From Candidatus Omnitrophota bacterium (lineage in GTDB: Bacteria; Omnitrophota; Gorgyraeia; Zapsychrales; Fredricksoniimonadaceae): a stretch of 53,342 bases of DNA. The stretch spans positions 1 through 53,342 of the forward strand of contig CAJBYM010000091.1 of the NCBI GenBank assembly GCA_903959815.1. Reading direction: 5' to 3'. The notes beneath the pieces were generated by a model. That model saw nothing but the letters and a program-made list of their open reading frames with translations, had not been told where the DNA came from and made no database searches. Both the position numbers and the translations under genes were made by a program. Below, one piece after another: positions 14,581 through 53,020 of this stretch; position 1 is the stretch's first letter, and every line of letters starts with the position of its first letter.

Positions 14581-17500
14581 ATGGCCTGGCTTGTGCCGCA
14601 TAAAAGAATAATAAAAATATTATTTATTGTTCTATCCCTCCTTGGCGGAGCATTACCCGCATTCGCTGCTAAAGATTACAATATCAAAAACGACAGCACC
14701 TCTTTCTTTTTTGTCAGCGGGACGAGTGGTAATGTCGGCATTGGCACGATCGTTCCTGTCGGAAAACTGAATATTGAGGGGGGTGCCGCGGCATCGTCCA
14801 GGATCGTCAATATTGGCGGTGCTTTCGCAGATCTTGATGGTTCACGCACCGGGCTTTATGTGGATGTGACAGCACCTGTGGTTGGTAATTTTGGTGCCAG
14901 CGGTTCCTGGTCGCAGGTGCGCACAACGGCTGCGAGCGGAATTTATGCGAGTGCGATCACGGGTGCTTACACCGAAGCCATGCATCAAGGGGCTTCAACG
15001 GTTTCGGATCTGATGGGGCTTATGACGCTTGCGAACCAGGTTGGCAGTGGTCCGGTGACCAATGCGTATGGTGTTTATCCGCAGGTCTGGAAAGGGTCAG
15101 CGCCGGGTGCGATCCAGAATGCGTACGGCATGTATTATCAAGGCGTGCCCAACGCCAACGGGGATACCGGCATTACGACCGGCACACTCGTTAATCAGTA
15201 TGGTCTGGGCATTTTGCATTTGACCACAGCTACAACGCGCAACATCGGCATCCTGTTGGATGATGACACGGTGGGCGCCTTGACCAGCGGTGATTTCGGT
15301 ATCCTTCAGGAAGACACAGCCCCCAATTCTTTTGCCGGGAATATCGGCGTCGGCACGACCCAGGTGACCGCACAGCTGGTCCTTGGTTCTGATGGTACGA
15401 CGCTTGTCGATAAACATTGGAACAAGGATACGACGGCCGCTACGGCCAATGAATCGCACTATGTGGTCGGCAAGAGTGATGTGAATATTACGACGCCCGC
15501 GCCGGTGGAGAAGTTCAGGTTCTTTGCCGGGTACGGTGGTTTTCAGGAAGTGGGCCAGATCGCGGTCAGTTCGCCCGGGATCGTGACCGGTTCAACGTTG
15601 GGCGGCGCGATCGATTTTTATACACAGGGTGTGGATAACCTTGTTAAAAGGATGACCATTGACAGTGTCAACGTTGGTATCGGGACGGATGTTCCTCTCG
15701 CCAAACTTCATATTGCGACAGACAATGCGTTCCCCGATGCCATGCCTATTACGGGCAGTGATCTTTACGTTAAAGGCAATATTGAGCTTGATGGAAAGAT
15801 CTATGGTGATGGGTCGGCGCTGACGAATCTTGGTCTTGCGGGTTATGTTCCTTATACGGGTGCGTTGAGTAATGTAGATTTGGGTATTTATACGTTGACA
15901 TCGGGTGTTATTTATTCCCAGGATGCGACCAAGGTTTATAAAGCCAAGTTGGAGCCTGTTAAAGGTTCAGGGATTTATACGGTCCTTGAGTTGTCTACGA
16001 CAGACAGTACCGGCGTGTTGAAAAAGAATTTTAAATTTGGAACAGATCCGGCTTACCCAACATATTCGAATATCTGGGCGCCGGGGGTGGCAAGTCCTAC
16101 GGGTACAAATTATGCCTGGCAAATGAAGGATACCGGTAATGAGGTCTGGTTTAATTCTACAGGTATGACTGTGTTTGCCATAAGCAATATTGAGAAAGTC
16201 ACAATTAATAGCGGTGGTTTGGGTGTCAATTATGTTTATAGCTCGCCTGCTATGCCGGCTAAGTTGTCGGTCAAAGGAGGCGGGACAACGACAGGGCTTT
16301 CGTTCCTTACGGTTGATTCTGGAGATGTCCAACGGTTTAAGATCCATGATAACGGAAATGCTGAATTTCTTACGGGCAATGTGGCTATAGGTACGAGCAG
16401 CGCAGTCCAGGTTCTTGATGTGCGCGGCAGTCAGTATGTGTCTGGTAATCTCGGCATCGGGACGACGACGCCAGTTTATAAACTGGATGTTTTGGGAAGT
16501 ACGGCTTACCCGGTTCGAATAAAAGGTTCTACGGGTGGTGGATTAATTTTAGGTGAATACAATAATGAATGGGGTGGGTTTTGGGCGGCTAGTGTCACGC
16601 CCTCTTCTGGCAACTTTGCCTTGATTGCAAGTTTTAGAGGAACTTCATTTAACGCACCTGATGGTACTGAAATTGGTTTTGGTATTAACGCCAGCAGGGC
16701 TATGACAATAAATTCTTCTGGCAACGTCGGCATTGGCACGACGGCTCCTGTTGCCAATTTACACATCGGAGCGGGCACACCCAGTTTGAGTGCTGATTTA
16801 AGTTCCAAGAGCGTGCTCATCAAAGGCAATCTCGAAGTCGACGGCAAGATCTACGGTGATGGGTCATTGCTGACAGGCGTGGCAACGACCGCGGCTCTTA
16901 CGACGAATTATGTGACCAAGATGGGGGCATTCTCCTTGGCTAATTCAGCGATTTATTCAGATGCGAATGGCAGCGTCGGCATTGGAACAACAATACCATT
17001 AGCAACCTATGGCGGTTTAGATATTTCATCCGGAGGATTAAGTTTAGTTCTCGGCGCTGATAACATCTTAACCACGCGTACCAATTCAACGGCTAAGAAT
17101 GGAAGAATTGGATCTGCCCACTATCTTAATGCTGAAGAGCCGATGGCAATGCTTATTGCAACAAGTGGTTCAACTAATGTGCTTAGCGTCGGCGGCGGAA
17201 CATCTTTAATGAACGCGGCGACCCAGATCGATTTTTATACAGCGACGAATACGACGACGACTACAGGCACGAATAGAATGACGTTAGACGCCAATGGCAA
17301 TGTCGGCATCGGGACGACAATTCCCGCAAACATGCTCGATGTCAGCGGCAACATAAGGATTAACAGTTCCAATAGCATTCTTAAGTTCCGAGACAGCGGC
17401 ACAACGCAAGTTGCGCAGATACAATTGAATTCAGCCGGCAGACTGGGGTTCTTTGATGACAGCAGTCTGGAGAAAATGACCATCTTGACACATTCAGGGG

Positions 17501-19065
17501 CTGATCAGGGCTACGTGGGTATCGGGACGACGACACCTGTTGCTAATCTTCACATCGGCGCCGGAACGCCATCTCTTGCCGCCGACCTTTCTACCAGCAG
17601 CGCGCTCATCAAAGGCAACCTCGAAGTCGACGGCAAGATCTACGGGGACGGGTCTGCACTGACGGGTTTAAGTTCAAGTCAATGGACGACGACAGGGTCA
17701 AATATTTATTACAACGCGGGGAATGTAGGTATTGGGACAGCCACTAATCTTTTATCAAAGCTCCAGATTTGGATGGCCGATACTCATACGACAGGGGCAT
17801 ATACAGGCCCTGGCACACTGCTTTTGTATAACAACCAGAATAATGCTGATGAGCAGGGTGCTGCGTTGATGTTTGGTTCTAATTATGAGGATGGGGCTGG
17901 TCAGCAATTCACCACGCGTGCAGGGATCAAGGGTGGTACGGATGCGGCGGGCAATACCGCAGACGGATATTTGGCGTTTTATACGACAACTGGCGCTGCG
18001 AACAATAATCTGGAAAGAATGAGGATCACATCTGCTGGCAACGTCGGGATCGGCACCACGACGCCTTTACAGGCTTTACATGTATTTGTCACTAGTGGAC
18101 AACCCGCTTTGTTTTCTGGATCTAGTCAGAGTGGTGGAACGATAAGATTGCAGGCGACGGGTTCGACAGGATTTTCTGGTGCGAACTTATATGATGAAGC
18201 CGGCGTCTTGTCGGGTTCGTTCCAATATGGGAATACTGCGGCAGCTGCATTTACAGATCAATTTGTTATTGCATCCAGGAAGTCGACAACACCTGTCATA
18301 TTTTATCAAGGCGGATACACGTCAGGATATGAAAGATTAAGGTTGGATACCGCAGGCAATATAATTATGACGGCTAACGTCGGTATCGGCACTACAGATC
18401 CGGCTGCAAATCTTCACATCGGCGCTGGCACGCCCACTTTAAGTGCAGATTTGAGCTCTAACAGTGCGCTGATCAAAGGCAACCTCGAAGTCGACGGCAA
18501 GATCTATGGTGACGGGTCATTGCTGACCGGCCTGACAACGACCGCGGCTCTTACGACGAATTATGTGACCAAGATGGGGGCATCTGCTCTCGCCAATTCG
18601 ATCGTTTATGACAACGGTACGAACGTAGGTATCGGTGTGGCTAGTCCTAGCGCGAAGCTTGAGGTCAACGGCACGCTGATCGTGGGTGGCAGCAGTGACA
18701 CCTATTTTAACGGCAATGTCGGCGTTGGATCAACGTCTCCGATGTCATCTTTGGATGTTAAAGGTTCCTTTGCGGTGTATCGTGCCGCAAAGTCAGCCAG
18801 TGCGACCAGCGCGGGTGAGACTATTATTGGCGTGACGGATACAAGTGCGACACGGACGATCACTCTGGCGACGGCGGATGTCAAGGCGGGACGTGTGGTC
18901 ATCGTTAAGGATGAGTCCGGTGGGGCCGGGGCGAACAATATCACGATCGCGACCGAAGGCGCACAGGCGATTGATGGGGATACATCGGATACAGCTTTGA
19001 AGATCACGGTGGGATATGGTGTGGTGCGGCTTTATTCGGATGGAAGCAACTGGTTCACGTTCTGA
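14581..19065 (+). CDS. Giant secreted stalk protein with GNVGIGTT repeats (1494 aa)
   Basis: A large exported protein, probably a surface fibre or adhesin. The signal peptide runs to about residue 31 (VLSLLGGALPAFAAKDYNIK). The body is a chain of repeats carrying GNVGIGTTxPVANLHIG, a Ser/Leu stretch, GNLEVDGKIYGDGS and LTG, alternating with variable beta-rich inserts; such repeats are known from tail-fibre-like and trimeric stalk proteins. The C terminus (about the last 100 residues: SLDVKGSFAVYRAAKSASAT onward, ending SNWFTF) resembles phage-type fibre tips. No transmembrane anchor is seen, so attachment to the cell is unknown. Its 5' region is a near copy of that at 26037. No Shine-Dalgarno sequence. 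Confidence 0.85.
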   Translation: MAWLVPHKRIIKILFIVLSLLGGALPAFAAKDYNIKNDSTSFFFVSGTSGNVGIGTIVPVGKLNIEGGAAASSRIVNIGGAFADLDGSRTGLYVDVTAPVVGNFGASGSWSQVRTTAASGIYASAITGAYTEAMHQGASTVSDLMGLMTLANQVGSGPVTNAYGVYPQVWKGSAPGAIQNAYGMYYQGVPNANGDTGITTGTLVNQYGLGILHLTTATTRNIGILLDDDTVGALTSGDFGILQEDTAPNSFAGNIGVGTTQVTAQLVLGSDGTTLVDKHWNKDTTAATANESHYVVGKSDVNITTPAPVEKFRFFAGYGGFQEVGQIAVSSPGIVTGSTLGGAIDFYTQGVDNLVKRMTIDSVNVGIGTDVPLAKLHIATDNAFPDAMPITGSDLYVKGNIELDGKIYGDGSALTNLGLAGYVPYTGALSNVDLGIYTLTSGVIYSQDATKVYKAKLEPVKGSGIYTVLELSTTDSTGVLKKNFKFGTDPAYPTYSNIWAPGVASPTGTNYAWQMKDTGNEVWFNSTGMTVFAISNIEKVTINSGGLGVNYVYSSPAMPAKLSVKGGGTTTGLSFLTVDSGDVQRFKIHDNGNAEFLTGNVAIGTSSAVQVLDVRGSQYVSGNLGIGTTTPVYKLDVLGSTAYPVRIKGSTGGGLILGEYNNEWGGFWAASVTPSSGNFALIASFRGTSFNAPDGTEIGFGINASRAMTINSSGNVGIGTTAPVANLHIGAGTPSLSADLSSKSVLIKGNLEVDGKIYGDGSLLTGVATTAALTTNYVTKMGAFSLANSAIYSDANGSVGIGTTIPLATYGGLDISSGGLSLVLGADNILTTRTNSTAKNGRIGSAHYLNAEEPMAMLIATSGSTNVLSVGGGTSLMNAATQIDFYTATNTTTTTGTNRMTLDANGNVGIGTTIPANMLDVSGNIRINSSNSILKFRDSGTTQVAQIQLNSAGRLGFFDDSSLEKMTILTHSGADQGYVGIGTTTPVANLHIGAGTPSLAADLSTSSALIKGNLEVDGKIYGDGSALTGLSSSQWTTTGSNIYYNAGNVGIGTATNLLSKLQIWMADTHTTGAYTGPGTLLLYNNQNNADEQGAALMFGSNYEDGAGQQFTTRAGIKGGTDAAGNTADGYLAFYTTTGAANNNLERMRITSAGNVGIGTTTPLQALHVFVTSGQPALFSGSSQSGGTIRLQATGSTGFSGANLYDEAGVLSGSFQYGNTAAAAFTDQFVIASRKSTTPVIFYQGGYTSGYERLRLDTAGNIIMTANVGIGTTDPAANLHIGAGTPTLSADLSSNSALIKGNLEVDGKIYGDGSLLTGLTTTAALTTNYVTKMGASALANSIVYDNGTNVGIGVASPSAKLEVNGTLIVGGSSDTYFNGNVGVGSTSPMSSLDVKGSFAVYRAAKSASATSAGETIIGVTDTSATRTITLATADVKAGRVVIVKDESGGAGANNITIATEGAQAIDGDTSDTALKITVGYGVVRLYSDGSNWFTF
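16725..18640 (+). repeat. Near-identical stalk modules in the 1494-aa protein
   Basis: Three DNA-level modules (about 16725-16925, 17515-17700, 18380-18600) encode GNVGIGTT, ANLHIGAGTP, LIKGNLEVDGKIYGDG and LTG. The first and third continue into almost the same AALTTNYVTKMGA segment. High nucleotide conservation, beyond what protein constraint needs, suggests recent duplication or gene conversion. Confidence 0.8.
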
Positions 19066-19152: not shown

Positions 19153-19800
19153 ATGCAAGAACGCAAGAATATACGATTGAAAGCATATGATTATTCACAA
19201 TCGGGTGGATATTTTTTGACCATGTGTGCATTCAAGAAATTAAGTCTTTTTGGTGAAATTGTTGATGGGCGTATGGAATTAAATGAATGTGGGCGGATCG
19301 TCCAACAGTATTGGTTGGAGATCCCGTTGCATTTCAAAGGCATACAATTGGATCAGCATGTGATCATGCCGAATCATATTCACGGTATTATTTTTATGGA
19401 TGATGACCGGACAACGTGGGGGAATATGCCGGATAGCGGGACAACATCGGGGGGCACGCCATGGCGTGCCCCTACACATCAGGGGGGCCGAGAACGGTTC
19501 GGAAAACCATTATCCGGATCGATCTCAACGATCGTCCGATCATTTAAATCATCGGTGACCAACCGGATCAATGAACAGCGTAATATATCAGGAGCTTGTG
19601 TTTGGCAACGTGGATTTTATGATCACGTTATACGTGATGTGAATGATCTGAAACGTATTCGTGAATATGTGCTGAACAATCCTTCACAATGGGCAATGGA
19701 TGACGAAAATTTGGGGCAGGTTCGAATAGTAGAGAATTCGAAGTATGCGGAGGTAAAGAAAAAGGGCAAGATCAAAATGATCTTACCCGTGAACCGGTAA
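19153..19800 (+). CDS. REP-associated tyrosine transposase 2 with internal REP
   Basis: A 215-aa Y1 HUH nuclease of the RAYT type. Motifs: LKAYDYSQSGGYFLTMCAFK at the start, HUH in VIMPNHIHGIIF, then RGFYDHVIRDVNDLKRIREY with the catalytic Tyr in REYVLNNPSQW. Between the HUH motif and the second half lies an extra segment, TTSGGTPWRAPTHQGG, encoded by a perfect REP palindrome of the same type as the BIME upstream; family members normally lack it. The frame is intact, so the enzyme may still work. The last ~20 codons run into the predicted sRNA of RNA unit 1, and the stop codon lies inside its anti-acceptor segment. Ribosome binding site AAGGAT. Confidence 0.9.
   Translation: MQERKNIRLKAYDYSQSGGYFLTMCAFKKLSLFGEIVDGRMELNECGRIVQQYWLEIPLHFKGIQLDQHVIMPNHIHGIIFMDDDRTTWGNMPDSGTTSGGTPWRAPTHQGGRERFGKPLSGSISTIVRSFKSSVTNRINEQRNISGACVWQRGFYDHVIRDVNDLKRIREYVLNNPSQWAMDDENLGQVRIVENSKYAEVKKKGKIKMILPVNR
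19451..19472. repeat. REP palindrome inside the RAYT 2 coding sequence
   Basis: A perfect 22-bp palindrome (each arm GGGGCACGCCA) followed by CTAC, the inverse of the GTAG head. It matches the REP at 19081 in inverted orientation and is read in frame as GTPWRAP. Confidence 0.9.
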
Positions 19801-19821
19801 CTCGTGAAGCAGGCCTCCGAC
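19757..19821 (-). ncRNA. Predicted antisense sRNA of RNA unit 1
   Basis: Predicted ~65-nt RNA read leftwards from promoter 19828-19855. Its start (minus TGTCGGAGGCC, 19812-19822) can pair over 11 nt, with one G-U, with the anticodon arm of the tRNA-like RNA (19941-19951). A second segment (minus GAGTTACCGG, 19794-19803) can pair over 10 nt, with one G-U, with its acceptor/D-stem strand (19966-19975). It ends in a hairpin (19764-19774 with 19778-19788, one G-U) and a 5-T run. The annotation rests on promoter, terminator, complementarity and conservation of the same layout in unit 2; transcription is not shown. Confidence 0.55.
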
Positions 19822-19827
19822 ACATTA

Positions 19828-19855
19828 AGTATATTGCGCGCTGTCATTTTTGCAA
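19828..19855 (-). promoter_or_regulatory. Promoter of predicted sRNA 1
   Basis: Minus strand: -35 TTGCAA (19850-19855), 16-bp spacer, -10 TATACT (19828-19833). The predicted start is near 19821, directly at the anti-anticodon segment. The same arrangement is found in unit 2 (TTGCAA, 17 bp, TATACT). Confidence 0.6.
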
Positions 19856-19856
19856 G

Positions 19857-19897
19857 AAAAAAACGGCCTTAAGAATGCCGACATCACTCTTAAGGCC
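19857..19897 (-). terminator. Terminator of tRNA-like RNA 1, with complementary loop
   Basis: A 10-bp stem GGCCTTAAGA/TCTTAAGGCC (19865-19874, 19888-19897) is followed on the minus strand by seven T. The loop contains minus TGTCGG (19878-19883), complementary to CCGACA in the enlarged anticodon loop of the tRNA-like gene just upstream. Confidence 0.85.
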
Positions 19898-19903
19898 TAG
19901 TAA

Positions 19904-19978
19904 CGCCCCGGGTGGGATTTGAACTCACAACCTGGTCTTTTGTCGGAGACCCGCTCTATCCATTTGAGCTACCGGGGC
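19904..19978 (-). tRNA. tRNA-like gene 1 (Arg-type body, abnormal anticodon loop)
   Basis: A 75-nt cloverleaf on the minus strand. Acceptor GCCCCGG/CCGGGGC is perfect, with discriminator G. The D-arm is GCTC/GAGC with GG in the loop. The T-loop is TTCAAAT, with a T-stem that has one A-C mismatch (GTGAG/CCCAC). Acceptor and D-arm resemble bacterial tRNA-Arg. The only good anticodon stem, GGTCT/AGACC, encloses an 8-nt loop (CCGACAAA) with no U at position 33; reading the CCG Arg anticodon after a T would break this stem. CCA is not encoded. It has its own promoter and terminator. It may be a non-decoding tRNA mimic or a decayed tRNA. Confidence 0.6.
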
Positions 19979-19990
19979 GAACTTGTTGTT

Positions 19991-20018
19991 AATGTAACAT
20001 AATTTGATGATTTGTCAA
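19991..20018 (-). promoter_or_regulatory. Promoter of tRNA-like RNA 1
   Basis: Minus strand: -35 TTGACA (20013-20018), 16-bp spacer, -10 TACATT (19991-19996), giving a start about 5 nt before the tRNA-like body. The -35 lies within TTGACAAATCATCAA, a motif also seen at 21172-21186, 25115-25129 and 46595-46609. Confidence 0.65.
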
Positions 20019-20039
20019 TATGATAAATGGGAACGAACC

Positions 20040-20825
20040 ATGTTTAAATGCCTAATCTTCATGATCCTTTTTTTCATCGCGACCCCGGCCCGCGCGGATA
20101 TCACGACCGGTCTGGTGGGGTGGTGGAAGTTTAATGAGGGTACCGGAACTTCAGCGACAGCTGACTCCAGTGGTCAAGGTAATAATGGGGTCTTGACAGG
20201 ACATGCTCCTTCGTGGGTGCAGGGTAAGCTTGTGAATGCACTAAGTTTTAATGGAACAAGCCAGTATGTTCAGATCTCAGGAGCAACTGATTCTTTAAAA
20301 GATGTTACTAAAACCAGTTTTACTTTTGTTGCTTGGGTAAAACCTTTGAGTTTTCCACCGTCTTGTATTGATACAAGCACAGTTTACTATGGTCTGGTAA
20401 TACGTCCAGGATATCATACAGGCTTGATATATAATTGTACGGGTAGATTTGCTGGTTTTGTGTGGATGACCAATCTTACGACGCGTAGTTTAAGCTCACC
20501 TGCATATACTTTTGGTTCATGGCATCATGTTGTCCAGGTTGTTGATGATGCTGCCAAGAATTTATACCTTTATGTTGATGGAACTCCTGTGACAGGATCG
20601 CCGGTTTCGTATTCCGGGACCTTGTATGATTATGCAACAAGTTCGTATAACGTTGGAGCTGCGGATCCGGCAAATATGAGTTGGTCATGGTTGGCGAATG
20701 CTGTGATCGATGATGTTCGTATTTACAATCGTGCTTTGTCCGCTGCAGACGTAAGTCAGCTTTATGCTTTAGGTGTGGCTCGCATCGGCGGCGGCCAGAT
20801 CTCGAATGCAAGGATAGGGAATTGA
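20040..20825 (+). CDS. Secreted LamG/concanavalin-like domain protein
   Basis: A 261-aa exported protein. The signal peptide (MFKCLIFMILFFIATPARA) is followed at once by a LamG_3-type jelly roll: GLVGWWKFNEGTGTSATADS, ALSFNGTSQYVQISG, FTFVAWVKPLSF, GSWHHVVQVVDDAAKNLYLY, VDGTPVTG, and the closing strand AVIDDVRIYNRALSAADVSQ. Such domains usually bind carbohydrate or surface ligands. The C-terminal tail (RIGGGQISNARIGN) has no known match. The start at 20040 is set by the signal peptide; ribosome binding is weak. It is divergent from tRNA-like gene 1, with its ATG 62 bp from that gene's 5' end, exactly as the adhesin at 21208 lies from tRNA-like gene 2, so unit plus surface gene look like one cassette. 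Confidence 0.88.
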   Translation: MFKCLIFMILFFIATPARADITTGLVGWWKFNEGTGTSATADSSGQGNNGVLTGHAPSWVQGKLVNALSFNGTSQYVQISGATDSLKDVTKTSFTFVAWVKPLSFPPSCIDTSTVYYGLVIRPGYHTGLIYNCTGRFAGFVWMTNLTTRSLSSPAYTFGSWHHVVQVVDDAAKNLYLYVDGTPVTGSPVSYSGTLYDYATSSYNVGAADPANMSWSWLANAVIDDVRIYNRALSAADVSQLYALGVARIGGGQISNARIGN

Positions 20826-20916
20826 TATGATGGATGGGAAAATACCCCACTCAGCCCCGGGCGCTGATGCCGCCCATGGCGGCTTCGGGGGTGTATTGCC
20901 GGGATTCCCCGACAAT

Positions 20917-20986
20917 ACAAAAGGGCAAGACCAAATTGATCTTGCCCCGCGATCCTGTAGCTGAAACGGAGATGTCCTCCTGACCG
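20917..20986 (-). ncRNA. Predicted antisense sRNA of RNA unit 2
   Basis: Predicted ~70-nt RNA. Its 5' part (minus GTCAGGAGGAC, 20974-20984) is an exact 11-nt complement of the anticodon arm of tRNA-like gene 2 (21109-21119). Minus GCTACAGG (20954-20961) complements its acceptor/D-stem strand over 8 nt, and minus TCCGTTT lies opposite the D-loop AAATGGA (one wobble). It ends in the stem GGGCAAGA/TCTTGCCC (20923-20930, 20940-20947) followed by four T. Compared with unit 1, the pairing bases change on both sides. Confidence 0.55.
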
Positions 20987-20992
20987 AATTTA

Positions 20993-21021
20993 AGTATAGA
21001 ACGATGAGGAAAATATTGCAA
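20993..21021 (-). promoter_or_regulatory. Promoter of predicted sRNA 2
   Basis: Minus strand: -35 TTGCAA (21016-21021), 17-bp spacer, -10 TATACT (20993-20998). The predicted start is near 20986, a few bases before the anti-anticodon segment. Confidence 0.62.
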
Positions 21022-21065
21022 TAAAAAATCAGCCTTAAGAACGACCTGACTCATTCTTAAGGCCT
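21021..21065 (-). terminator. Terminator of tRNA-like RNA 2, with complementary loop
   Basis: An 11-bp stem (21031-21041 with 21054-21064, one G-U) is followed on the minus strand by a T-rich run. The loop contains minus AGTCAGG (21045-21051), an exact 7-nt complement of CCTGACT in the anticodon loop of tRNA-like gene 2. The stem is shared with unit 1, but the loop has changed with its partner. Confidence 0.85.
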
Positions 21066-21071
21066 AAGTAA

Positions 21072-21146
21072 CGCCCCTGGCGAGAATTGAACTCGCACCT
21101 GTCCTTTAGTCAGGAGGACCGCATTGATCCATTTTGCTACAGGGGC
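21072..21146 (-). tRNA. tRNA-like gene 2 (Arg-type body, 9-nt anticodon loop)
   Basis: A 75-nt cloverleaf paralogous to gene 1. Acceptor GCCCCTG/CAGGGGC and T-arm GCGAG-TTCAATT-CTCGC are perfect. The D-arm (GCAA/ATGC) has one mismatch but keeps GG in the loop. The anticodon stem GTCCT/AGGAC encloses a 9-nt loop, CCTGACTAA. An Arg CCT triplet preceded by T is present but would lie partly inside this stem. No encoded CCA. Promoter, spacing and terminator match unit 1. The intact acceptor and T-arm argue against simple decay, yet the loop is not that of a normal decoding tRNA. Confidence 0.6.
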
Positions 21147-21158
21147 GAACTTGTTGTT

Positions 21159-21186
21159 AATGTAACATATTTTGATAATTTGTCAA
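21159..21186 (-). promoter_or_regulatory. Promoter of tRNA-like RNA 2
   Basis: Minus strand: -35 TTGACA (21181-21186), 16-bp spacer, -10 TACATT (21159-21164). The 20 bp from the -10 to the gene are the same as in unit 1 (TACATTAACAACAAGTTCGC). Confidence 0.65.
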
Positions 21187-21207: not shown

Positions 21208-24200
21208 ATGTTTAAAGGCCTCATTTTATTTTTTCTGATCCTAGCCGCAGGCTCGGTTTTTGCCGCGGGTCCGAATTTCAATGACATCACGATCAAGCCC
21301 GTTACAGCGAACAGCGCTGGCAATGTCGGCATCGGCACGACGGCACCCCGCAATCTTCTTGATGTGAACGGCACCGCTTCTGGTGCAGCAGGGATCTATT
21401 TGAATGCCGCGGTGCCAGGATCGACGACAAATACCCTTTATAACAGCGGTGGGTCGCTTTACTGGAACGGTTCGGCAGTTGGCGGCAGCGGGTCGGGTAC
21501 GGTCAGCAGTGGAACGTCGGGGTATTTTACGTACTATCCTTCGACGGGAACGACGGTGGATGACCAGTCACTGCTTTATACTGATGGTACGAATATTGGT
21601 ATTGGAACTACGCTGCCGAAGATGCGTCTTGATATTCCCGGTTATAGCACTGCCAATTCACAGTTACGTGTGGGGAATATTGAATACCAGACGTATGCGT
21701 CGAACAATGTGACCTTTGGCGATAATGTTTATTATGATGGTGCGTCTTTTCGTTATCGCAATAACGGTTACGCGGTCCAGTTTTATATGTACAACGGCAT
21801 GTTCGAAGTAAGGACCGTGCCTTCAGGTACGGCAGGGAGTGCGGCGTCTCCGACGCAGCATTTTATCGTGACCAATGATGGCAATGTCGGTATTGGCGGC
21901 AATCAGGATCAGAATTCCCTTACAGGTTCGGTGTTAACGGTGCTGAACGCGGGCAATGTGGGTATTGGCACGATCCTTCCTTTGGCCAAACTTCATATTG
22001 CGGGCGACGCCATTGCGCCTAATGCCATGTCGATCACCGGCAGTGATCTTTTTGTGAAAGGTAACATTGAATTTGACGGCAAGATCTATGGTGATGGATC
22101 TGCGTTGACAGGTCTTGCGATCGGGTCAGGCACGGTTAATAGTGGTGCGGCAGGTTTCTTTGCTTATTATCCGTCGGCCGGAACGGCTGTTAGTAGCCAC
22201 TCAGCACTTTATACGAATGGGACGAATGTAGGTATTGGAACGAGCTTGCCGAATAATAAGATCCATGTCGCGGGGCTCATTAATTTTAATGACGCGGAAT
22301 TTAATACTCTTTTAGGTTATCGCACAGGGTTGAGGCTCGTTAATGGCGCGCAATATAATGTTTTTGTAGGTTATGAATCAGGGATGTCGGGTGCTGCGAC
22401 AACGCTTGCGGCGGATAATAATACGGCGGTTGGTTATTGGACTCTTTATTCCAACACGTCGGGCAATGAAAATACGGCTATGGGGAACCAGTCTCTTAAG
22501 AATAATACAACGGGTGCTTTGAATACGGCTTATGGTTCAGCGGCTCTTTTTAATAATACAACAGGTGGGAATAATACTGTCAGCGGGTATGGAGCTCTTT
22601 ATTCTAATTCAGGGGGTAGTTATAACGCTGCTAATGGTACTTACGCCGCATTCTTTAGTACGGGTAGTAATAATACGGCGTTTGGTACGAGTTCGCTTTA
22701 TTCTAATAAAGCTGGTTCTAATGCTACGGCAATTGGGTATCAGGCGATGTATTATGCGAATAATACTACAACGCCATTTACAAATTATAATGTCGCTGTT
22801 GGCTATGAAGCATTAAGGGGATCGGAGACAGCGGCAAATAATATAGGTAATAATAATACGGCTTTAGGCTATGTATCCTTGTGGAGTGATACATCTGGTG
22901 GGAGTAATACAGGCAATGGTTATGCGGCATTGTATTCCAATACGACGGGTTCTAATAATGTTGCTTTAGGTTATGAAGCCGGTCGTTATCAATCGAATGG
23001 TTCAACGGCGCTTACTGATCCTGAGAATTCTGTTTATATAGGGTATGCTGCTAAAGGGAAAGATAATAGTGATAGCAACTCGATTGTCATAGGATACGAT
23101 GCTACAGGCTTAGGGGCCAATAGTGTTGTTTTGGGTAATAATTCTATTACGACAACAGTATTAAAAGGCAATGTGGGTATTGGTAGTACGAATCCTGTGA
23201 GTCCGTTGAATGTGGCGTCGACCTTATCCACTTCCGGTGGTTACGGTGGATATTTTGCTACCACAGGAGCTGGGAGCTCAGACCTGGGTGCGGGGACGAA
23301 GCTTAGATCTTTTTATTCACTTTTGGCTGCGGGGTATACGGGGAATTCTGGTACGTCTGCCATGGAGTTTGTCAATCTTACAGCCGGAACCGGAACAAAT
23401 CCTTTTTCGGGCACAGGCAGGGCTAATTATGGGTTATTGGGGGATTCACGAGCGTCTACCAACGGGACCAATGTTGGTGCCTATCTTCAGGGTATTCAGG
23501 GCAAAAAGAATTACGGGATCATAGGATTAGCACCGCTCAGTCTTAATAGCCCGACGGATAATATTGGTGTTCTCGGCTTTGCTTTGGGGGCTACAAATAA
23601 TGTGGGCGGGTTTTTCAGCCTGTTTGAGAATACGGAGCCCACCTTTGAGTCTGCGGCATTGATCGCCGATAATGCGGCGCAAACATCCCCCATTTTTCTG
23701 GCCAGAGACAACGGGACGAAGGTGTTTGTGATCAATGATGGCGGCAATGTCGGCATCGGGACCACGGTGCCGGTCGCTTTACTTGATGTCGATGGGTCTA
23801 TTTATGGGAATACGGCACGTTTTGGCGGTAACAGCAATTACAGTGAATTTGAAGCAGACGGAACGCTTAAGATGGTCGGAGATGCGACGGTTTGGAATGA
23901 TCTGGTGGTGCCGGGTCTGATGGTGCGGACTCAAGGCAGCAGTGATCCGACCTTAGATATTTTTCAAACGCCGATCCGGGCTTATGCTTTTGCCGATGGC
24001 GCAAGCAATGAAGTCTTTCTGTCTTTTCAAATGTCTCATACTTATAAAGAAGGGACCGATATTCATCCGCATGTTCATTTCTCGCCCAACAATACGAATA
24101 CAGGCAGTGTGCGTTGGTGCATTGATTATACCTGGAGCAATATCAATGCGGCGATGCCCGCCTCTACGACATCGTGTGTGAATACAGCGGCATCGGGTAC

Positions 24201-24396
24201 GCAATTTGATCATCAGATCGGGAGTCTTGGAACGATTACAGGAACAGGTAAAATGATCTCGAGTGTTCTTGTGGCTCGGCTTTATCGTGAAGGGGGAAAT
24301 GGAGCGGATACCTATAATGATAAAGCTTTTCTCTTGTCCGTAGATATCCACTACGAGGCAGACACCGAGGGCTCGCGTACAACCCTGGCGAAATAA
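21208..24396 (+). CDS. Secreted adhesin with YadA-head-like repeats (1062 aa)
   Basis: An exported fibre-like protein. Signal peptide MFKGLILFFLILAAGSVFA, then GNVGIGTTAP stalk repeats. The central part (about residues 380-650) consists of 14-20-residue repeats such as NTAVGYWTLYSNTSGNENTA and NNTAFGTSSLYSNKAGSN, a left-handed beta-roll pattern known from YadA heads and tail-fibre-domain proteins. The C terminus (about residues 890-1062) holds a distinct domain with HPHVHFSPNN and VRWCIDYTWSNIN, a type found in phage structural proteins. Its ATG is 62 bp from tRNA-like gene 2, divergent. The first codons (ATGTTTAAA) match those of the LamG gene. A family-B palindrome follows its stop codon. 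Confidence 0.85.
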   Translation: MFKGLILFFLILAAGSVFAAGPNFNDITIKPVTANSAGNVGIGTTAPRNLLDVNGTASGAAGIYLNAAVPGSTTNTLYNSGGSLYWNGSAVGGSGSGTVSSGTSGYFTYYPSTGTTVDDQSLLYTDGTNIGIGTTLPKMRLDIPGYSTANSQLRVGNIEYQTYASNNVTFGDNVYYDGASFRYRNNGYAVQFYMYNGMFEVRTVPSGTAGSAASPTQHFIVTNDGNVGIGGNQDQNSLTGSVLTVLNAGNVGIGTILPLAKLHIAGDAIAPNAMSITGSDLFVKGNIEFDGKIYGDGSALTGLAIGSGTVNSGAAGFFAYYPSAGTAVSSHSALYTNGTNVGIGTSLPNNKIHVAGLINFNDAEFNTLLGYRTGLRLVNGAQYNVFVGYESGMSGAATTLAADNNTAVGYWTLYSNTSGNENTAMGNQSLKNNTTGALNTAYGSAALFNNTTGGNNTVSGYGALYSNSGGSYNAANGTYAAFFSTGSNNTAFGTSSLYSNKAGSNATAIGYQAMYYANNTTTPFTNYNVAVGYEALRGSETAANNIGNNNTALGYVSLWSDTSGGSNTGNGYAALYSNTTGSNNVALGYEAGRYQSNGSTALTDPENSVYIGYAAKGKDNSDSNSIVIGYDATGLGANSVVLGNNSITTTVLKGNVGIGSTNPVSPLNVASTLSTSGGYGGYFATTGAGSSDLGAGTKLRSFYSLLAAGYTGNSGTSAMEFVNLTAGTGTNPFSGTGRANYGLLGDSRASTNGTNVGAYLQGIQGKKNYGIIGLAPLSLNSPTDNIGVLGFALGATNNVGGFFSLFENTEPTFESAALIADNAAQTSPIFLARDNGTKVFVINDGGNVGIGTTVPVALLDVDGSIYGNTARFGGNSNYSEFEADGTLKMVGDATVWNDLVVPGLMVRTQGSSDPTLDIFQTPIRAYAFADGASNEVFLSFQMSHTYKEGTDIHPHVHFSPNNTNTGSVRWCIDYTWSNINAAMPASTTSCVNTAASGTQFDHQIGSLGTITGTGKMISSVLVARLYREGGNGADTYNDKAFLLSVDIHYEADTEGSRTTLAK

Positions 24397-26036: not shown

Positions 26037-29000
26037 ATGGCCTGGCTTGTGCCGCATAAAAGAATAATAAGAATATTATTTATTGTTCTATCCCTCCTTG
26101 GCGGAGCATCGCCCGCATTCGCTGCTAAAGATTACAATATCAAGAACGATAACACTTCCTTCTTCTTTGTCAGCGGGACGAGCGGCAATATCGGTATCGG
26201 AACAACGGTGCCGGTGGGTAAACTGAACATTGAAGCTGGCGCTACGGCTCCTTCCCGGGTTTTGAATATCCAGGGGACATTTGCTGATCTTGCGGGCACT
26301 CGGGCCGGGCTTTATTCCGACATGACCGCATCTGTCACAGGTGCGGGTTTTGCGACCGGTTCCTGGTCTGAGATCCGTACGACCGCGGGCGTGGGCGAGA
26401 CGTATCCTGGCATGGTGGCAGGTTCTTATTCCGAAGCGCTGCATTCCGGGGCATCCACGGCAACATATCTTGCGGGCGTGATGACGATCGTCAATCAGTT
26501 CGGCAGCGGTCCGGTTACGAACGCTTATGGCCTTTACCCGCAGATCTGGAAAGGATCAGCTCCGGGCACGATGCAGAATGCTTACGGCCTTTATTACGAA
26601 GGCGTTCCCCACGAGAATCCTGAAACGCATGCAATTAATGGCACGATCACGAATCAATATGGTATTGGCATCGGGCATTTGACCGAGGCCACCAACAATG
26701 TCGGTTTGATCCTTGACGACAATACACCGGGTGCGGCTACGGCAGGCTCTTTCGGGATCCTTCAGGAAGCAACAGAGCCTAATTCGTTCGCCGGCAATGT
26801 CGGCATCGGTACGACGAATGTGGATGCTCAGCTGGTCATGCAGAACACCGACGGTATCGCCCGTATGGACGCGCAAAGGTTCCGTTTCTTCGGCGGCACG
26901 GGGGCTTTTCAGGAAGTGGTGCAGATGGCCGTGACAGTACCCGGCCCTACGGCGGGGGCGATGGATATTAATACCCTTGGCGTCGACGGACTTGTCAAGC
27001 GCATGACGGTCGACGATACGAAGGTGGTGTTTACGACCAATGTGGGCATCGGCACAACTGCGCCTGTGGCCAGGCTTCACATTGCTAACGACAACACCGT
27101 GCCCAATGCCATGCCGATCACCGGCAATGATCTTTACGTTAAAGGAAATATTGAATTAGACGGCAAGATCTACGGTGACGGGTCGGCGTTGACGAATCTG
27201 ACCGCCAGCGGAGCGGCGGGTGCGACGACAAATGTTCAGTATAACAATGCGGGATCGATGACCGGTTCGAATAATTTTGTATTTGACGGAACAAATGTGG
27301 GGATTGGGACGACGAACCCAACAGTTAAAATGCATGTTGCGGGAACGAGTACAGCAACGAATATGTATATTGAAGGATTAGTAAATGGGACGGCTCATGG
27401 GTATGCGAACAGGTTCGCTTTGGCTAGTGGTGTGAGTTTGTGGTTTTATGACAGCAATGTTGAGATCGGCAAGTCAGGAACAAGTTTATTTTTTAATGTT
27501 GGTGGGACGGAGAAATTGCGTATTACTAATACTGGCAACGTCGGTATTGGAACCACAGCGCCTGTACAGGTGCTCGATGTTCGCGGTAATCAGTATGTTT
27601 CCGGCAACATGGGGATCGGGGCGATAGCGCCGAGCAACAAATTGCAGGTTGTTGCGACCAGCAATTACAACGGGTTGTTTGTGTCCGCTGGAGATGTTTC
27701 TCCTTATAGCGCGCGCATCGCCACATTCAGGTATGCCGGTAACAGCAATGATGTGGTCATTGAGAATAGTTCAGGCAAAGCCGGGATTCAGGCTAGGAAC
27801 AGTGATACGAGTGTAATGGACCTTTTGCTGCAGAATAGCGGCGCGAATGTCGGCATCGGCTCTGCTAATCCCCGCGGTAGACTTGATATTGGCACAGGTG
27901 TTATTTATGGCGATGGGTCAGGGCTGACCAATCTTTCCGGGTCTGGCTGGACATCAACGACCGGCAAGGTTTATACCACGACGTCGACGGATAACGTTGG
28001 CATCGGGACGACGGCGCCGCTGTATTTATTGGATGTTAACGGCACAGGAAAATTCACCGGTAATCTTGCTGTGCCTGCTGGGACCGTTGGAAGCCCGGGC
28101 CTAAAGATCGGTTCAGGTACGGCAGGCCTTATTGGTGCTAATACGAATGATATCGCGCTTGTATCCAATGGTGTCAATGTTGCTACCTTTATAGCGGCAT
28201 CAGCAACCGACGTCCGATTCCAGATAAATACCACAAATTTCAGCACCGCATTCACCCAGTATGAAGGGACTTGGTTCGGGACCAGTAATCCTACGATCTT
28301 CCAGCCGTTGTCACCTGCGACCGCGCATGATGTTGCTATTACAGGGACGCAGAATACGCCCACCAATGGTGTCGTAATTAAGGCTGCCGGGAATACAGGG
28401 GTCGGCACCACGGCACCTGTGGCCAAGCTTCATGTCGGTACAGGAACACCCGCAGGATCAGCGGACCTTTCTTCCAATAGTGCATTTATCAAAGGTAATC
28501 TCGAAGTCGACGGGAAGATCTATGGCGATGGGTCGTTATTAACAGGTATTACGTCCAGTCAGTGGACGACGAGCGGCAGTGATATCTACCGTAGTTCGGG
28601 CAATGTTGGTATCGGGACAGGTGTTCCTGGTGGGAAGCTGGATGTGGCAGGCGCTATCGTCACGAGTAATAATGGAGGTCTTTTCCTTAATTCTTCAACA
28701 GGTGTTACGGCGGATGCAGCTCTCTACAACACTTCATTTATGAATATACAGGTTCCGGCAAATTATGGTTCCGGTGGAACGGATAGAGAGACGTTGCTTA
28801 CCGCTCAAGTTACTGGGTCTAACAGCCTTTTTGCGATTGGCAATGGAACAAATGGGGATAATGTATTTGTTCCATATTTTCTCTTGAGGAATGCGGATGA
28901 TTCAAGAAATGCAGGTGCTTTTGTTGGACAGAAGAAAGATGATCTGGCATTTACTGGAAGTTTATATGCCCCCGCTTTATCTTTCTCAGGCCGGACCATT

Positions 29001-32000
29001 TCTTCTCTAAATCTCGATAATTCGCCGATTGCCATATTTTCAACCCGCGGGAATTACGGGCAGTTTACGATCTGGAATGACGGGCGTCTGATCATTGAAA
29101 AAGATCAGGGCTATAACATCTCTGGCATTTTTGTGGCCGATCCTGGCAGTCAGATGGTAAAAATAACGAATAAAGACGCGGCTACATCTGGCATCAAGAT
29201 CATCGGTGCGGCGGGCCAGACGGCTGATTACATGAAGATAGAAACTTCGAGCAGTGGTTCTATCCTTAACGTGACAGCCGCCGGGAATGTGGGTATCGGA
29301 ACGACGACGCCGTTACAGAGGCTTGAGGTTGCAGGAGGCTTGCTTTTGAGCGGGGGTTCATTGGGCGCTCCGCTTATTCTCAACGATAACAATTATATTT
29401 TTGGTGGAGGAAATACCGTTGGTGCCAATGCGATATTTGGTGTTGTCCCGAGTCAAACAGAGCTTTATGCCAGAAATAATATTCTTAGGATATATTCTGC
29501 AGGCGGTGGTGCAGCTTATATTTCTGTAGTTTCTGGCAACGTCGGCTTTGGGACGACAACGCCTGTTGCCAATCTTCATGTCGGATCCGGCGCACCGACC
29601 CTTTCTGCAGATCTTTCTACGAACAGCGCGCTCATTAAAGGTAATCTCGAAGTCGACGGCAAGATCTATGGTGATGGTTCTGCATTAACGGGGATCAGTT
29701 CGAGCCAGTGGATTACGACGGGCAGTGATATTTATTACAGTACAGGGAACGTGGGTGTCGGGACTACGGCGCCTACTTCACCATTGACGGTGAAGGGAGG
29801 GACATCGGAAAGTACGACATTTGCATCTATCACTGGCACGTTGACATCGACGGCCGCGAGTTCGATCAATGCTGTTTCTGTTGTGGCTACCTTAAGCCCC
29901 GCGAGCAGTTCAGCGATGAATTTCCGTTCTCTTTCAATGTCTAATACTTTTGATACTACTGCAGCTTTTACTGGAACTGGAACGCAGGCGCCTGCTGCAG
30001 GTTGGTTCGAAAGTAGGGTTGTTCGCGCTGGGAATGTGACGCAAATGAACTCTGCTTTTGCTATCGGCTTAATTATGGGTTCCGCTGGAACGTCTATGGG
30101 TACTGTGGGTGAGGTCAATGCCGGGTTGTTTCAGCCGGTCAATTCATTTAGCAATTCGGTTGTTGCTACGATTAGCAATGCGTACGGGCTTCACATTGTT
30201 GATTCTGTGAAGAATAATCTTGTGATGACCAACCAGGCTGGTATAAGTGTTCCGGCGTTGACGGCGGCAACCAATAACACTCTTTTGCTCCTTGGAACGT
30301 CGACGATACCTGCGGGCAATTATGCTCTTTATAATCCTTCAACAAGTAACAATTATTTTGGAGGGAATGTGGGCATTGGCAGTACTTCTCCGGCTAATGC
30401 ATTGGATGTCACTGGACGGATAAAGGCATCTAGTTTGATATATTCTGGATCATCTTATTATGGCCAAGATAATCTATATGGTTATAGTGCGTATGCTGTT
30501 CAAGCTGCAGGTATCCTTACTTTACACACTAACAGTACAAGTATTATTTTGAATGTTGGTGGTTCGAGTGAAAAGATGAGGATTACGTCTGGTGGCAATG
30601 TCGGTATCGGCACTACAACGCCTGTTGCCAATCTTCATGTCGGATCCGGCGCGCCGACCCTTTCTGCAGATCTTTCAACGAACAGCGCGCTCATCAGAGG
30701 CAATCTCGAAGTCGACGGCAAGATTTACGGCGATGGGTCGTTATTAACAGGTATTACGTCCAGTCAGTGGACGACGAGCGGCAGTGATATCTACCGTAGT
30801 TCGGGCAATGTCGGCATTGGTACGACGAATCCAAGAGGGAGAATTGAAACAAGTTTATCAACAGATGATTATACAAATACTAATGGTGCTGGCGCTGCAA
30901 TAATCATGTCTAGTCCGACGGGGTCACAAAATGTCGTTTATTCAGAAATTGGTGGATCAATGGTGGCGAAATGGAGAACCGATGTCGTTGGAAATGTAAA
31001 TTGGATAGCTGGGAAATCCGGTGGAGCCCATTTCTTCTTGACTGGAGGGGATTATGGAACGGGAAAGATCAGGATGTATATCCCTGACAATGGGAATGTT
31101 TTTATTGGCGGTGATATGCCAGCATACAGTGGTTCTAATTCCAGTTTAGCGGTAGTGCAAGGTAACGTCGGTGTTGGGACGACAACGCCGATTGCAAAAC
31201 TTCACGTCGGCGCAGGCCGTATTAATAATTCTTTTGTTGATGGTGTGGGAGGCACAACAAATCCTCAGATCTTAAATAGTCAGACTTCCGGAGTGGCTTC
31301 AATAGGTCTTTCGGTTGCAGATGGGACACATGGTGCCCGTGTTAATTTGTTTCTTAATGAAACTTCGGGTGTGTGGGGGCTTGGAGAGACTTATGAGAGT
31401 GGCGGGAGCTATCCATTTGTTTTAGTTTCGGGTGGTGTTGAGCGTTTTCGTATTAATACATCCGGCAATATTGGTATTGGGACTTCTATTCCTCTGGCTA
31501 AACTTCACATCGCGACTGACAACGCTGCGCCCAATGCCATGCCCATTACTGGCAACGATCTTTATGTGAAGGGCAATATCGAGCTTGACGGCAAGATCTA
31601 CGGCGATGGCTCGGGCTTGACGAATCTTTCCGCCAGTGGAGCGGCGGGCGTTACGACGAATGTTCAATACAACAGTGCGGGTTTGATGGCCGGGTCGAAT
31701 AATTTTGTATTTGATGGAGCAAATGTGGGGATTGGCATTATATCCCCAGCAGCAACCTTAAACATTGTCGATGGGGGGACAGGATCAGTTAATAGTCTTA
31801 GAGTAAATAATGCTTTCAATGTAACGGGAGACGGTATTATTACTTGGGGAAATGGTGTAGCCAATGGATATATGACATGGGATACCGGTAATGCAACTGT
31901 GGGCAGTCAAAGTGGTAAAGATTTTATACTTGCAGCTGGTGCGGGAGAGAAAATGAGAATATTAAGCGGTGGAAACGTGGGCATCGGGACGACGAGCCCG

Positions 32001-40050: not shown

Positions 40051-43000
40051 ATGATGTTTCATATGATCAAGAAAACCAATGGGACAAAAGTTATGAAGAC
40101 ACAAACTTATATCAGACATGTTTTTCTGGTTGTTTTATTTCTACCACTGGCGTTGTATTCTTCGCGCGGATGGTCTGCAGATAATATTTTTACTAACAAT
40201 GTTGGCGTCGGAACGACGGTTCCTAACAATACGTTGCAGGTTGCCAATCTCATCACATTTGATAATACGAATCTTAGTACTAAGGTTGGTTATCAGGCGG
40301 GGAATAATATTGTAACGGGGGCAATTAATAATACGTTTGTCGGATATCTCGCTGGGCTTTCGGGTTCGGGGACATCGACGAATGCCGCGGATGATAATAC
40401 AGCTGTTGGTTATCAGGCGTTAAAAGTTAATACGACAGGAAGTCAAAATACAGCGATCGGGGCCAGCGCGCTGGAAACCAATGCATCCGGCAACAGTAAT
40501 ACGGCCGTGGGCCATAAGGCGCTTCAAAGTAATACCGGCAGTAATAACGTGGCTGTTGGACAGGCCGCTCTTCAGAGTAACGGTTCAGGTAATCAGAATG
40601 TGGCGATTGGGTTTGGGCCGCTTTTGTCCAATAGCGATGGCAGTAATAATATTGCCTTGGGGCTAAGTGCGGGTCGTTTCTTGGCAGATGGTTCAACAAC
40701 CAATACGACGGCTGATTATGGTTTATACATTGGAGCGAGTACAAAAGCTTCACTGACAAATATGCAAAATGAAATTGTTATTGGATATAACGCGACGGGT
40801 ATCGGGTCTAATACGGTTGTGTTGGGCAGTGATGCTGTTGTCAAGACGGCATTGAAAGGCAACGTGGGTATCGGGACGATCCTTCCTTTGGCTAAACTTC
40901 ACATTGCTACGGATGCCATTGCACCCAATGCCATGTCGATCACAGGAAGTGATCTTTTTTTGAGGGGCAACATCGAGCTTGATGGCAGAATTTATGGTGA
41001 TGGATCCCAGTTGACGGGGATCACGTCCAGTCAGTGGACCACGACGGGTAGTGATATTTATTATGCAACAGGTAATGTTGGCGTTGGCACAACACTGCCT
41101 GTTGGCCTGCTGGATGTTAACCGCAAGTTTACGATTTTGAGCAATGGCAATATTGGCATTGGCAATGTGGCGCCGACAGCTAAGTTTCATGTTGTAGGTT
41201 CGGGATCCCAGATTCTTTTTTTGATCGGATCTTATTTTCTTATGACAGCAGATGGTGTTTTGAACTGGGGTTCGGGTTCGGCGAGTCAGGGATTGTTAAG
41301 TTGGGATACAGACAAAGTAATGGTGGGTGGGCTTTCAGGAAATGCATATGTCTTATGGGCCAATGGTGCAGAGAAAATGCGTATCGAAACAACCGGGAAC
41401 GTTGGCATTGGCACCACGATGCCTGTTGCCATGCTTCATATTGGTGGTGCTTCTGCCCCTAGCGCTATGCCCAATACGGGCTCAGATCTTTTTGTGAGGG
41501 GCAACATCGAACTCGACGGTAGAATTTATGGCGACGGATCGCAGTTGACGGGTTTGAGTTCAAGTCAGTGGACCACAACGGGTAGTGATATTTATTATAC
41601 GACAGGGAATGTCGGCATCGGTTCTGCTTCACCGCGCGTGAAACTCGATCTTGGTGGTGACGGGGTGATCTTAGCGACGGGAACGAACGGCTCTGGCTGG
41701 ACGGAATCCGGTCTAGGTGCAGGCACGCGCATGATGTGGTATCCGCGAAAATCTGCGTTTAGGGCAGGGGCTGTTGACGGGGCGCAATGGAGTGATGCGA
41801 ATGTGGGATCGCAGTCAGTGGCGATGGGGTATAACCCAACAGCGAGTGGAGGCACGTCGATAGCTTTAGGGAATTATGCTCAGGCAAGTGGAGATCGTTC
41901 TGTTGCCATGGGGAATATAACAAATGCAAGCGGCTGGGCTTCAACGGCCATGGGGAATACAACAAGCGCGGAAGCCTATGTTCAAACAACGTTGGGCGCT
42001 TATAATCTTCCCAAGGGCGGTGAAACTCCTGGCTCTTGGGTTACGACGGATCCGCTGTTTGTTATAGGTAATGGCACGGGCTCGGCAGGTAGTCGTTCAA
42101 CTGCGATGATGGTTTTAAAGAATGGCAATGTGGGCATCGGGACCACGGCGCCACGCAGTTTGCTCGATGTTAACGGTGCAGTTAGGACGGAGGGGATTGA
42201 TTCAGGGAGTATTGTTGCCAGGAGTGGGAGCACGATCGGTGTCAGCAGCATCTATGGTGCTTCCAGCTTGGGCGCGGCTGATCTAACGCTCATGTTCCCG
42301 ACAGGGTCACAGAACTTTATAACGACCGCTTCATCGGGGGGCAATGATGGCCAGCCTTTTTTGATCAAGGCGATGAGCGCAGCTGCCGGTCCAGATCTTG
42401 CAGGAGGGAATCTTTATCTGGCCGCAGGTGATTCCATGGGGAATAAATCGTCCAATATTTATTTGCAGACATCGACGGCCGGGGCATCGGGTTCTGTGCA
42501 GCGTTCTGTTTCTACGAAAGTCACGGTCAATGGCGATGGCAATATGGGTATCGGGACGACCGCGCCGGGCAGTCTTTTAAGCTTGGGCAATTATACAGGT
42601 GACCCAAACGATGCTACCGCGCTTGCTGCATCGCAGGTTCAAATTAATGATTTCCCGACAACAACGGCAAATCAAAAGCAAACATCTTTTTGGGTTATCA
42701 GTCAACCTACCGTTACCTCAAATAGTTCAGCTGCAAATACAGTTTTCAGTAGCACTTTAACGGTGCCGTCTAGCTCGACATACAATTATAGTTCGTTAGC
42801 TGCTGCACAGAATTCTTTAAATATTGCTGGCTCTGGAACTGTTTCTTATCTTACGGGAGGTTCTAGTATAGTAAATAATACATCGACAGGAGTTATTTCT
42901 GAGGCAGTTGGATCAAAAGCTGGTGTCAACAATATGGTAACGGGATCAGCTATAACGAGAGCTAAAGGTGCTTATAATTGGATTTGGAATGGGAATCCAT

Positions 43001-52881: not shown

Positions 52882-52919
52882 CAGTTATTAACGGAACTGA
52901 TCGTAGAGCGATCAGTTAC

Positions 52920-53020
52920 GGCGGCCAGACGACCGTTCTCATTGTGTCAATGAGGTTAGGTTCATGGCTTTGCGTCCTACTCTTTCGAGTAGTTTGCCGA
53001 CCCAGACCATAGGTCTGCCC
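52920..53020 (-). promoter_or_regulatory. c-di-GMP-I (GEMM) riboswitch aptamer
   Basis: The minus-strand core (52966-52998) reads GGCAAACTACTCGAAAGAG then TAGGACGCAAAGCC. It matches the GEMM consensus: GGCAAAC, a stem capped by a GAAA tetraloop (CTACTC-GAAA-GAGTAG), and GGACGCAAAGCC. It is followed by CCTAA, the usual start of the tetraloop-receptor strand, and a hairpin CTCATTG/CAATGAG. The closing stem was not resolved with certainty. Confidence 0.82.

Follow-up and report, generated by a model that had tools for sequence, protein, structure and literature searches.

Plasmid copy control by CopA/CopT and RNA I/RNA II is a familiar case of loop-loop recognition between an antisense RNA and its target, in which diversification of the loops yields independent specificities. 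In type VIII toxin-antitoxin units such as CreTA and SdsR/RyeA, both parts are RNAs encoded near each other: CreT is a mini-open reading frame (ORF) RNA that acts at the level of transfer RNA (tRNA) supply and is kept repressed by Cascade with a CRISPR-like guide, and SdsR and RyeA are overlapping RNAs from opposite strands (PMC10767807, PMC8501985). In the type I pair hok/sok, the antitoxin is an antisense RNA, and 3' trimming of the hok messenger RNA (mRNA) precedes both its activity and its accessibility to Sok (PMC4147584). Bacillus cereus has a pseudo-tRNA, tRNA-Other, which lies within a larger RNA and, although tRNA-like, has no function in translation (PMC3399842). Here we describe two paralogous units on the minus strand of a 53,342-nt stretch of DNA from a Candidatus Omnitrophota bacterium (contig CAJBYM010000091.1; hereafter the window), each of which is predicted to encode a tRNA-like RNA (RNA 1) and, in tandem, a partner RNA antisense to it (RNA 2). 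In the literature searched, which excluded most subscription journals and all preprints, we found no tRNA-like RNA described in an equivalent antisense or toxin-antitoxin context, and a stand-alone tRNA-shaped RNA with its own tandem antisense RNA appears to be new.

The units lie at 19757-20018 and 20919-21186 and share one layout, in which promoter P1, the tRNA-like RNA, terminator 1, promoter P2, the partner RNA (approximately 70 nt in both) and terminator 2 follow one another. The original prediction, made from the letters of the window, had given essentially these positions and this order on the minus strand, and both are borne out. It had also noted that the stem of terminator 1 is common to the two units, and had overlooked the complementarity of the terminator loop to the anticodon arm. 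The parts of the units are as follows.

19991..20018 (-): unit 1 promoter P1, TTGACA-16-TACATT with TG preceding the -10 element
19904..19978 (-): unit 1 tRNA-like RNA, Rfam tRNA 49.6 bits, also called by ARAGORN, model R1 158.7 bits
19857..19897 (-): unit 1 terminator 1, hairpin and T run
19828..19855 (-): unit 1 promoter P2, TTGCAA-16-TATACT
19757..19826 (-): unit 1 partner (antisense) RNA, predicted, with its 5' end placed from P2
19822-19812 (-): unit 1 partner, anti-anticodon part TGTCGGAGGCC
19803-19794 (-): unit 1 partner, anti-acceptor/D part GAGTTACCGG
19788-19757 (-): unit 1 partner, terminator 2
21159..21186 (-): unit 2 promoter P1, TTGACA-16-TACATT with TG preceding the -10 element
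21072..21146 (-): unit 2 tRNA-like RNA, Rfam tRNA 52.3 bits, model R1 154.4 bits
21023..21064 (-): unit 2 terminator 1, predicted
20993..21021 (-): unit 2 promoter P2, TTGCAA-17-TATACT
20919..20991 (-): unit 2 partner (antisense) RNA, predicted, with its 5' end placed from P2
20985-20974 (-): unit 2 partner, anti-anticodon part GGTCAGGAGGAC
20961-20954 (-): unit 2 partner, anti-acceptor/D part GCTACAGG
20948-20919 (-): unit 2 partner, terminator 2

All of the terminators were recovered (4/4), the chance expectation for the region being 1.5 terminators and 2.5 promoters, and both RNAs are predicted to be transcribed. A palindrome, TTGAtnAATnATCAA, spans the -35 element of P1 and is conserved family-wide (alignments A3-A5). 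Both tRNA-like RNAs score above the Rfam tRNA (RF00005) gathering score of 29, and the anticodon calls that ARAGORN makes for them are odd ('gaca' and Val gac). Their anticodon arms are GGGTCTCCGACAAAAGACC in unit 1 and GGTCCTCCTGACTAAAGGAC in unit 2, CCA is encoded in neither, and the -1:73 pair of unit 1 is C:G.

The partner RNA of each window unit is antisense to two parts of its tRNA-like RNA. It complements the anticodon arm over approximately 12 nt (TGTCGGAGGCC against GGTCTCCGACA in unit 1, GGTCAGGAGGAC against GTCCTCCTGACT in unit 2) and the 5' strand of the acceptor/D region over 8-10 nt (GAGTTACCGG / CCGGTAGCTC and GCTACAGG / CCTGTAGC, respectively). Cofolding yields a gain of 15.1 and 12.0 kcal/mol for the two cognate pairs, whereas the crossed pairs gain only 1.7 and 0.0 kcal/mol, and the cloverleaf is opened in the predicted cognate cofold. 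The anticodon loop has a further, shorter complement in the loop of terminator 1, which reproduces part of the anti-anticodon sequence: there, TGTCGG (19883-19878) matches CCGACA in unit 1 and GTCAGG (21050-21045) matches CCTGAC in unit 2.

Homologous units were found by two routes. A blastn search returned five relatives, all of which (5/5) carry the same parts with differing anticodon sequences, and covariance models, the check that the original prediction had proposed, were built in three successive rounds. The resulting set comprises 44 intact units and one remnant from three families of Candidatus Omnitrophota: f1, the family of the window, with 29 loci in 17 of 32 genomes; f5, with six loci from the covariance-model search; and f15, with ten loci in 10 of 108 genomes. 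The units are well separated from ordinary tRNAs in score, at least 106 against at most 79 bits in f1 and at least 109 against at most 87 bits in f15. Intact units number 0-3 per f1 genome, and their occurrence is patchy.

The co-variation of the two RNAs across these units carries the main finding. In all 44 intact units (44/44), the anticodon arm of RNA 1 finds its complement in the cognate partner, with a mean run of 12.6 nt for cognate and 7.5 nt for non-cognate combinations and mean duplex energies of -23.2 and -12.6 kcal/mol, respectively. The terminator-1 region likewise complements the arm in these units, the same comparison giving 7.5 against 6.1 nt and -14.0 against -8.8 kcal/mol. 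Not one of 20,000 permutations was as good as the observed pairing, whether labels were shuffled overall or within families, in tests that do not fully correct for shared ancestry. Paralogues in the same genome behave alike (-23.5 kcal/mol for 21 cognate pairs, -13.6 kcal/mol for 30 crossed ones), paralogous pairs within one genome being largely orthogonal. The second part of the partner matches the acceptor/D strand at p<=0.05 in 27 of the 44 units, and this match reaches 11-16 nt in 6/6 f5 and 9/10 f15 units. Since runs are extended more often by G-U pairs than by A-C mismatches (27 units versus 11), the strand given here is supported as the transcribed one. A direct example comes from two sister species with a unit at the same cysS|tmk site, where the arms are CCCTTCACTAAGG and CCCTTCACGAAGG and the partners CCTTAGTGAGGG and CCTTCGTGAGG, so that one change in the loop is compensated. 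Because pairing is kept in 44 units although the paired letters differ, the match is under selection, and co-variation in 44 pairs speaks strongly, on evolutionary grounds, for mutual recognition of the two RNAs. The original prediction of an antisense-controlled tRNA mimic whose variable parts change together with those of its partner is thus strongly supported in 44/44 units, and relatives that had lost the complementarity, which would have spoken against it, were not seen among them.

The first RNA resembles a tRNA in most respects other than those that matter for decoding. A typical T-loop motif is present in 42/44 units, the D arm (D stem and GG) is tRNA-like, and the RF00005 scores of the two window units exceed gathering. 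Nearly all tRNAs have U33 and a purine at position 37. Each of these occurs in only 24/44 units, compared with 30/30 host tRNAs for both, a figure that is slightly circular because the register of the host tRNAs was partly picked by U33 and R37. Positions 27-33 of the anticodon arm are each 89-98% pyrimidine and are mixed in host tRNAs. Position -1 pairs with 73 in 42/44 units, and the acceptor helix mostly runs on into leader and trailer. No unit encodes CCA, as is also true of some host tRNAs. The frequent loss of U33 and R37, the extended acceptor helix and the missing CCA together suggest a tRNA mimic rather than a tRNA with an ordinary role in decoding. Because NAC anticodons are common, a genuine tRNA-Val was considered; it was rejected, since many units do not keep U33 and R37. 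A reading with Arg identity (A20, C35) and an expanded tRNA-Arg loop was dropped, as a 7-nt register accommodates the loops.

Set beside the described systems, the units agree with type VIII in that two linked non-coding RNAs are complementary in 44/44 cases, their physical interaction being read from that complementarity. They differ from both CreTA and SdsR/RyeA in combining a tRNA mimic with an antisense RNA that acts in trans and is encoded in tandem on the same strand. Membership in CreTA was rejected, since the partner complements the tRNA-like transcript and not its promoter and no CRISPR repeat or repeat-like handle was seen in the units. With hok/sok they would share an antisense antitoxin and, possibly, a target whose 3' end masks its active part and is processed for activation (PMC4147584), but the units encode no toxin protein or ORF, both of their RNAs come from one strand, and the target is a cloverleaf. 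For tRNA-Other, no antisense partner gene or co-varying loop family is described in PMC3399842. The units follow the same principle of loop recognition and loop diversification as the plasmid copy-control pairs named at the outset. In CopA/CopT and RNA I/RNA II, unlike in our units, the two transcripts overlap on opposite strands, and what is controlled is a replication primer or an mRNA. A T-box riboswitch finds no footing in the window, where no Rfam T-box match appears up to E=1 and no same-strand coding gene lies directly downstream. The partner RNA matches none of 4227 Rfam families; the only matches are to tRNA, for RNA 1, and, below threshold on the reverse strand of the tRNA-like genes, to Plastid-ycf2 (28.1 bits at 21071-21146 (+) and 21.6 bits at 19903-19978 (+)), presumably because that family resembles antisense tRNA.

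These features lead us to a mechanism in which RNA 1 would be a tRNA mimic with its own terminator, acting through its tRNA resemblance as an RNA toxin or a dedicated translation inhibitor. RNA 2 has its own promoter, constitutive in appearance, just downstream on that strand. It would act in trans, antisense to the 5' portion of RNA 1, and, as cofolding predicts, take the cloverleaf of RNA 1 apart. In the primary transcript, the anticodon arm may be sequestered by the terminator-loop complement before 3' trimming, much as hok mRNA is held by pairing of its 3' end; active RNA 1 would then be neutralised by RNA 2, and loss of the module or an altered RNA ratio would free the toxin. A partner so well suited to dismantling a tRNA mimic is most simply read as neutralising something harmful or strongly active. 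This reading, a toxin-antitoxin module of RNA alone that resembles type VIII but has a novel sort of toxin, is the likeliest of those considered, at about even odds on the sequence evidence, and the original prediction's idea of an addiction module akin to CreTA is compatible with it. The fuller proposal, a new RNA-only class with a tRNA mimic as toxin and an unfolding anti-tRNA as antitoxin, whose specificity is rewritten jointly in the anticodon arm, terminator loop and antisense RNA, is offered tentatively, as a possibility somewhat short of even. The genetics look toxin-antitoxin-like, with patchy occurrence, unrelated neighbours and empty sites. No intact tRNA-like RNA without a partner was seen among the units found; the sole partner-less copy (G021d, L124) also lacks most of promoter 1 and U8, and in L138 the 5' half of the tRNA-like RNA is gone while a decayed partner is still present.

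Several points weigh against a toxin-antitoxin pair of this kind. The degenerate copies match its logic, but just two cases bear on addiction. The toxicity of RNA 1 is a prediction. An acceptor helix extended in this way speaks against charging of the RNA and against its binding by EF-Tu, which makes a simple mis-decoding toxin unlikely. The hok-like masking step is a guess, since in the L-shaped geometry of a tRNA the terminator loop may not reach its own anticodon. Part of the permutation signal may reflect shared ancestry, and the placement of f15 units at ribosomal RNA (rRNA) operons looks more like that of a regulatory gene that has settled than that of something selfish.

That placement also bears on a serious rival, strongest for f15 and on the whole unlikely, in which the pair is regulatory and non-toxic: the tRNA mimic would be a small RNA or decoy acting on translation, for instance with its polypyrimidine arm bound to purine-rich Shine-Dalgarno sites or by keeping tRNA enzymes occupied, and the partner a dedicated sponge that sets a threshold. 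The pyrimidine bias of the arm across the 44 units is in keeping with this, as is the setting of f15, where at least 7 of the 10 units follow the 5S gene of an rRNA operon, in several genera (L193, L194, L196, L199, L200, L174 and L180, 64-250 bp and once 860 bp downstream of 5S on the same strand). There the tRNA-like RNA has a promoter of its own kind, a conserved non-standard motif GTTAGATTT-N~12-CGTCTATT, together with a 5' leader hairpin, whereas the partner retains a strong sigma-70 promoter, a difference that would fit an effector under regulation whose antisense partner is made constitutively. However, occurrence is patchy, and the arm turns over together with the partner between loci and paralogues, so that no conserved third-party target is readable from it. 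Control of a neighbouring operon in cis, by an antisense unit that tunes the downstream gene through interference or processing, is very improbable. Of the f1 units with both neighbours visible, 19/22 are antisense to both, often approximately 20 bp or less from the next start codon, and f5 units are oriented likewise; yet such a bias is expected if strong terminators would be polar in sense orientation, f15 units lack it, and the neighbours have no common function. In f1 they are housekeeping or surface genes that are mutually unrelated, and sites in other genomes include cysS/tmk, gcvPA/gcvPB, proC/MTAP-like gene, thiL/tsaE and positions after dnaK and after an rRNA operon (neighbours were called by a simple ORF finder and named from their translations). 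As the flanking genes elsewhere are different and unrelated, the earlier suggestion that the units regulate the divergent surface genes of the window finds no support.

Empty sites raise another possibility. At cysS|tmk, gcvPA|gcvPB and after dnaK, genes abut or overlap where relatives bear a unit, which shows that units were inserted between abutting operon genes. Together with the unrelated flanks and a loop diversification like that of incompatibility determinants, this would suit a small mobile RNA element modelled on antisense-controlled replicons and transposons, whose tRNA-like RNA would prime its spread or serve as an intermediate in it, with the partner limiting copy number. We consider it improbable, because the empty-site comparisons contain no target-site duplication, no ends are common to the units outside the functional parts, no recombinase or reverse transcriptase is linked in common, near-identical recent copies are absent, and units are retained vertically for long at the same site. 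Ordinary or decaying tRNA genes with chance complementarity downstream can practically be dismissed: the tRNA model does match, and the nearest host genes are tRNA-Arg-like, but the co-variation (0/20,000 permutations) already refutes this explanation, and the score gap in f1 and the deviating U33, R37 and acceptor helix stand against it as well.

The host phylum is uncultured, and hardly any work exists on its small RNAs. A toxic RNA 1 would represent a new kind of toxin and show that the tRNA shape is usable as a weapon or a brake, and the largely orthogonal pairs would serve as ready-made RNA switches.

An exact-pattern scan of approximately 85,000 prokaryote species gave matches confined to Candidatus Omnitrophota, with an f1-derived pattern that would miss distant forms. 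Some hits in the phylum turned out on checking to be ordinary tRNAs (e.g. L137, L167, L169-L171, L173, L175-L179, L181-L192). A phage or plasmid origin was rejected, as phage records held no meaningful match and viral contigs none to the same exact pattern, with its same blindness to distant forms; the plasmid collection was not searched. The unit at L119:5351-5585, the sole f1 unit oriented sense to both neighbours, has an insert of approximately 70 nt in the T arm of its tRNA-like RNA and retains terminator, partner and complementarity.

Unit 1 of the window adjoins a Y1_Tnp (IS200-like/RAYT-type) transposase gene at 19153-19797, with REP-like repeats ggggcacgccatggcgtgcccc nearby, and genes similar to this transposase flank the units of two other genomes (G003 and G022). 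In G013 (L133, near 3420), the empty site after dnaK holds a short palindrome, GGGGACAGTCCCC, where a relative carries a unit, and the spot behaves as if it accepts different small elements. The window further encodes very large surface-type proteins (14581-19062, 21208-24393, 26037-34976 and 40051-45426), which mostly lack a Pfam match and one of which has a YadA head repeat, and it contains a c-di-GMP-I riboswitch aptamer at 52917-53008 (-), scoring 62.4 bits.

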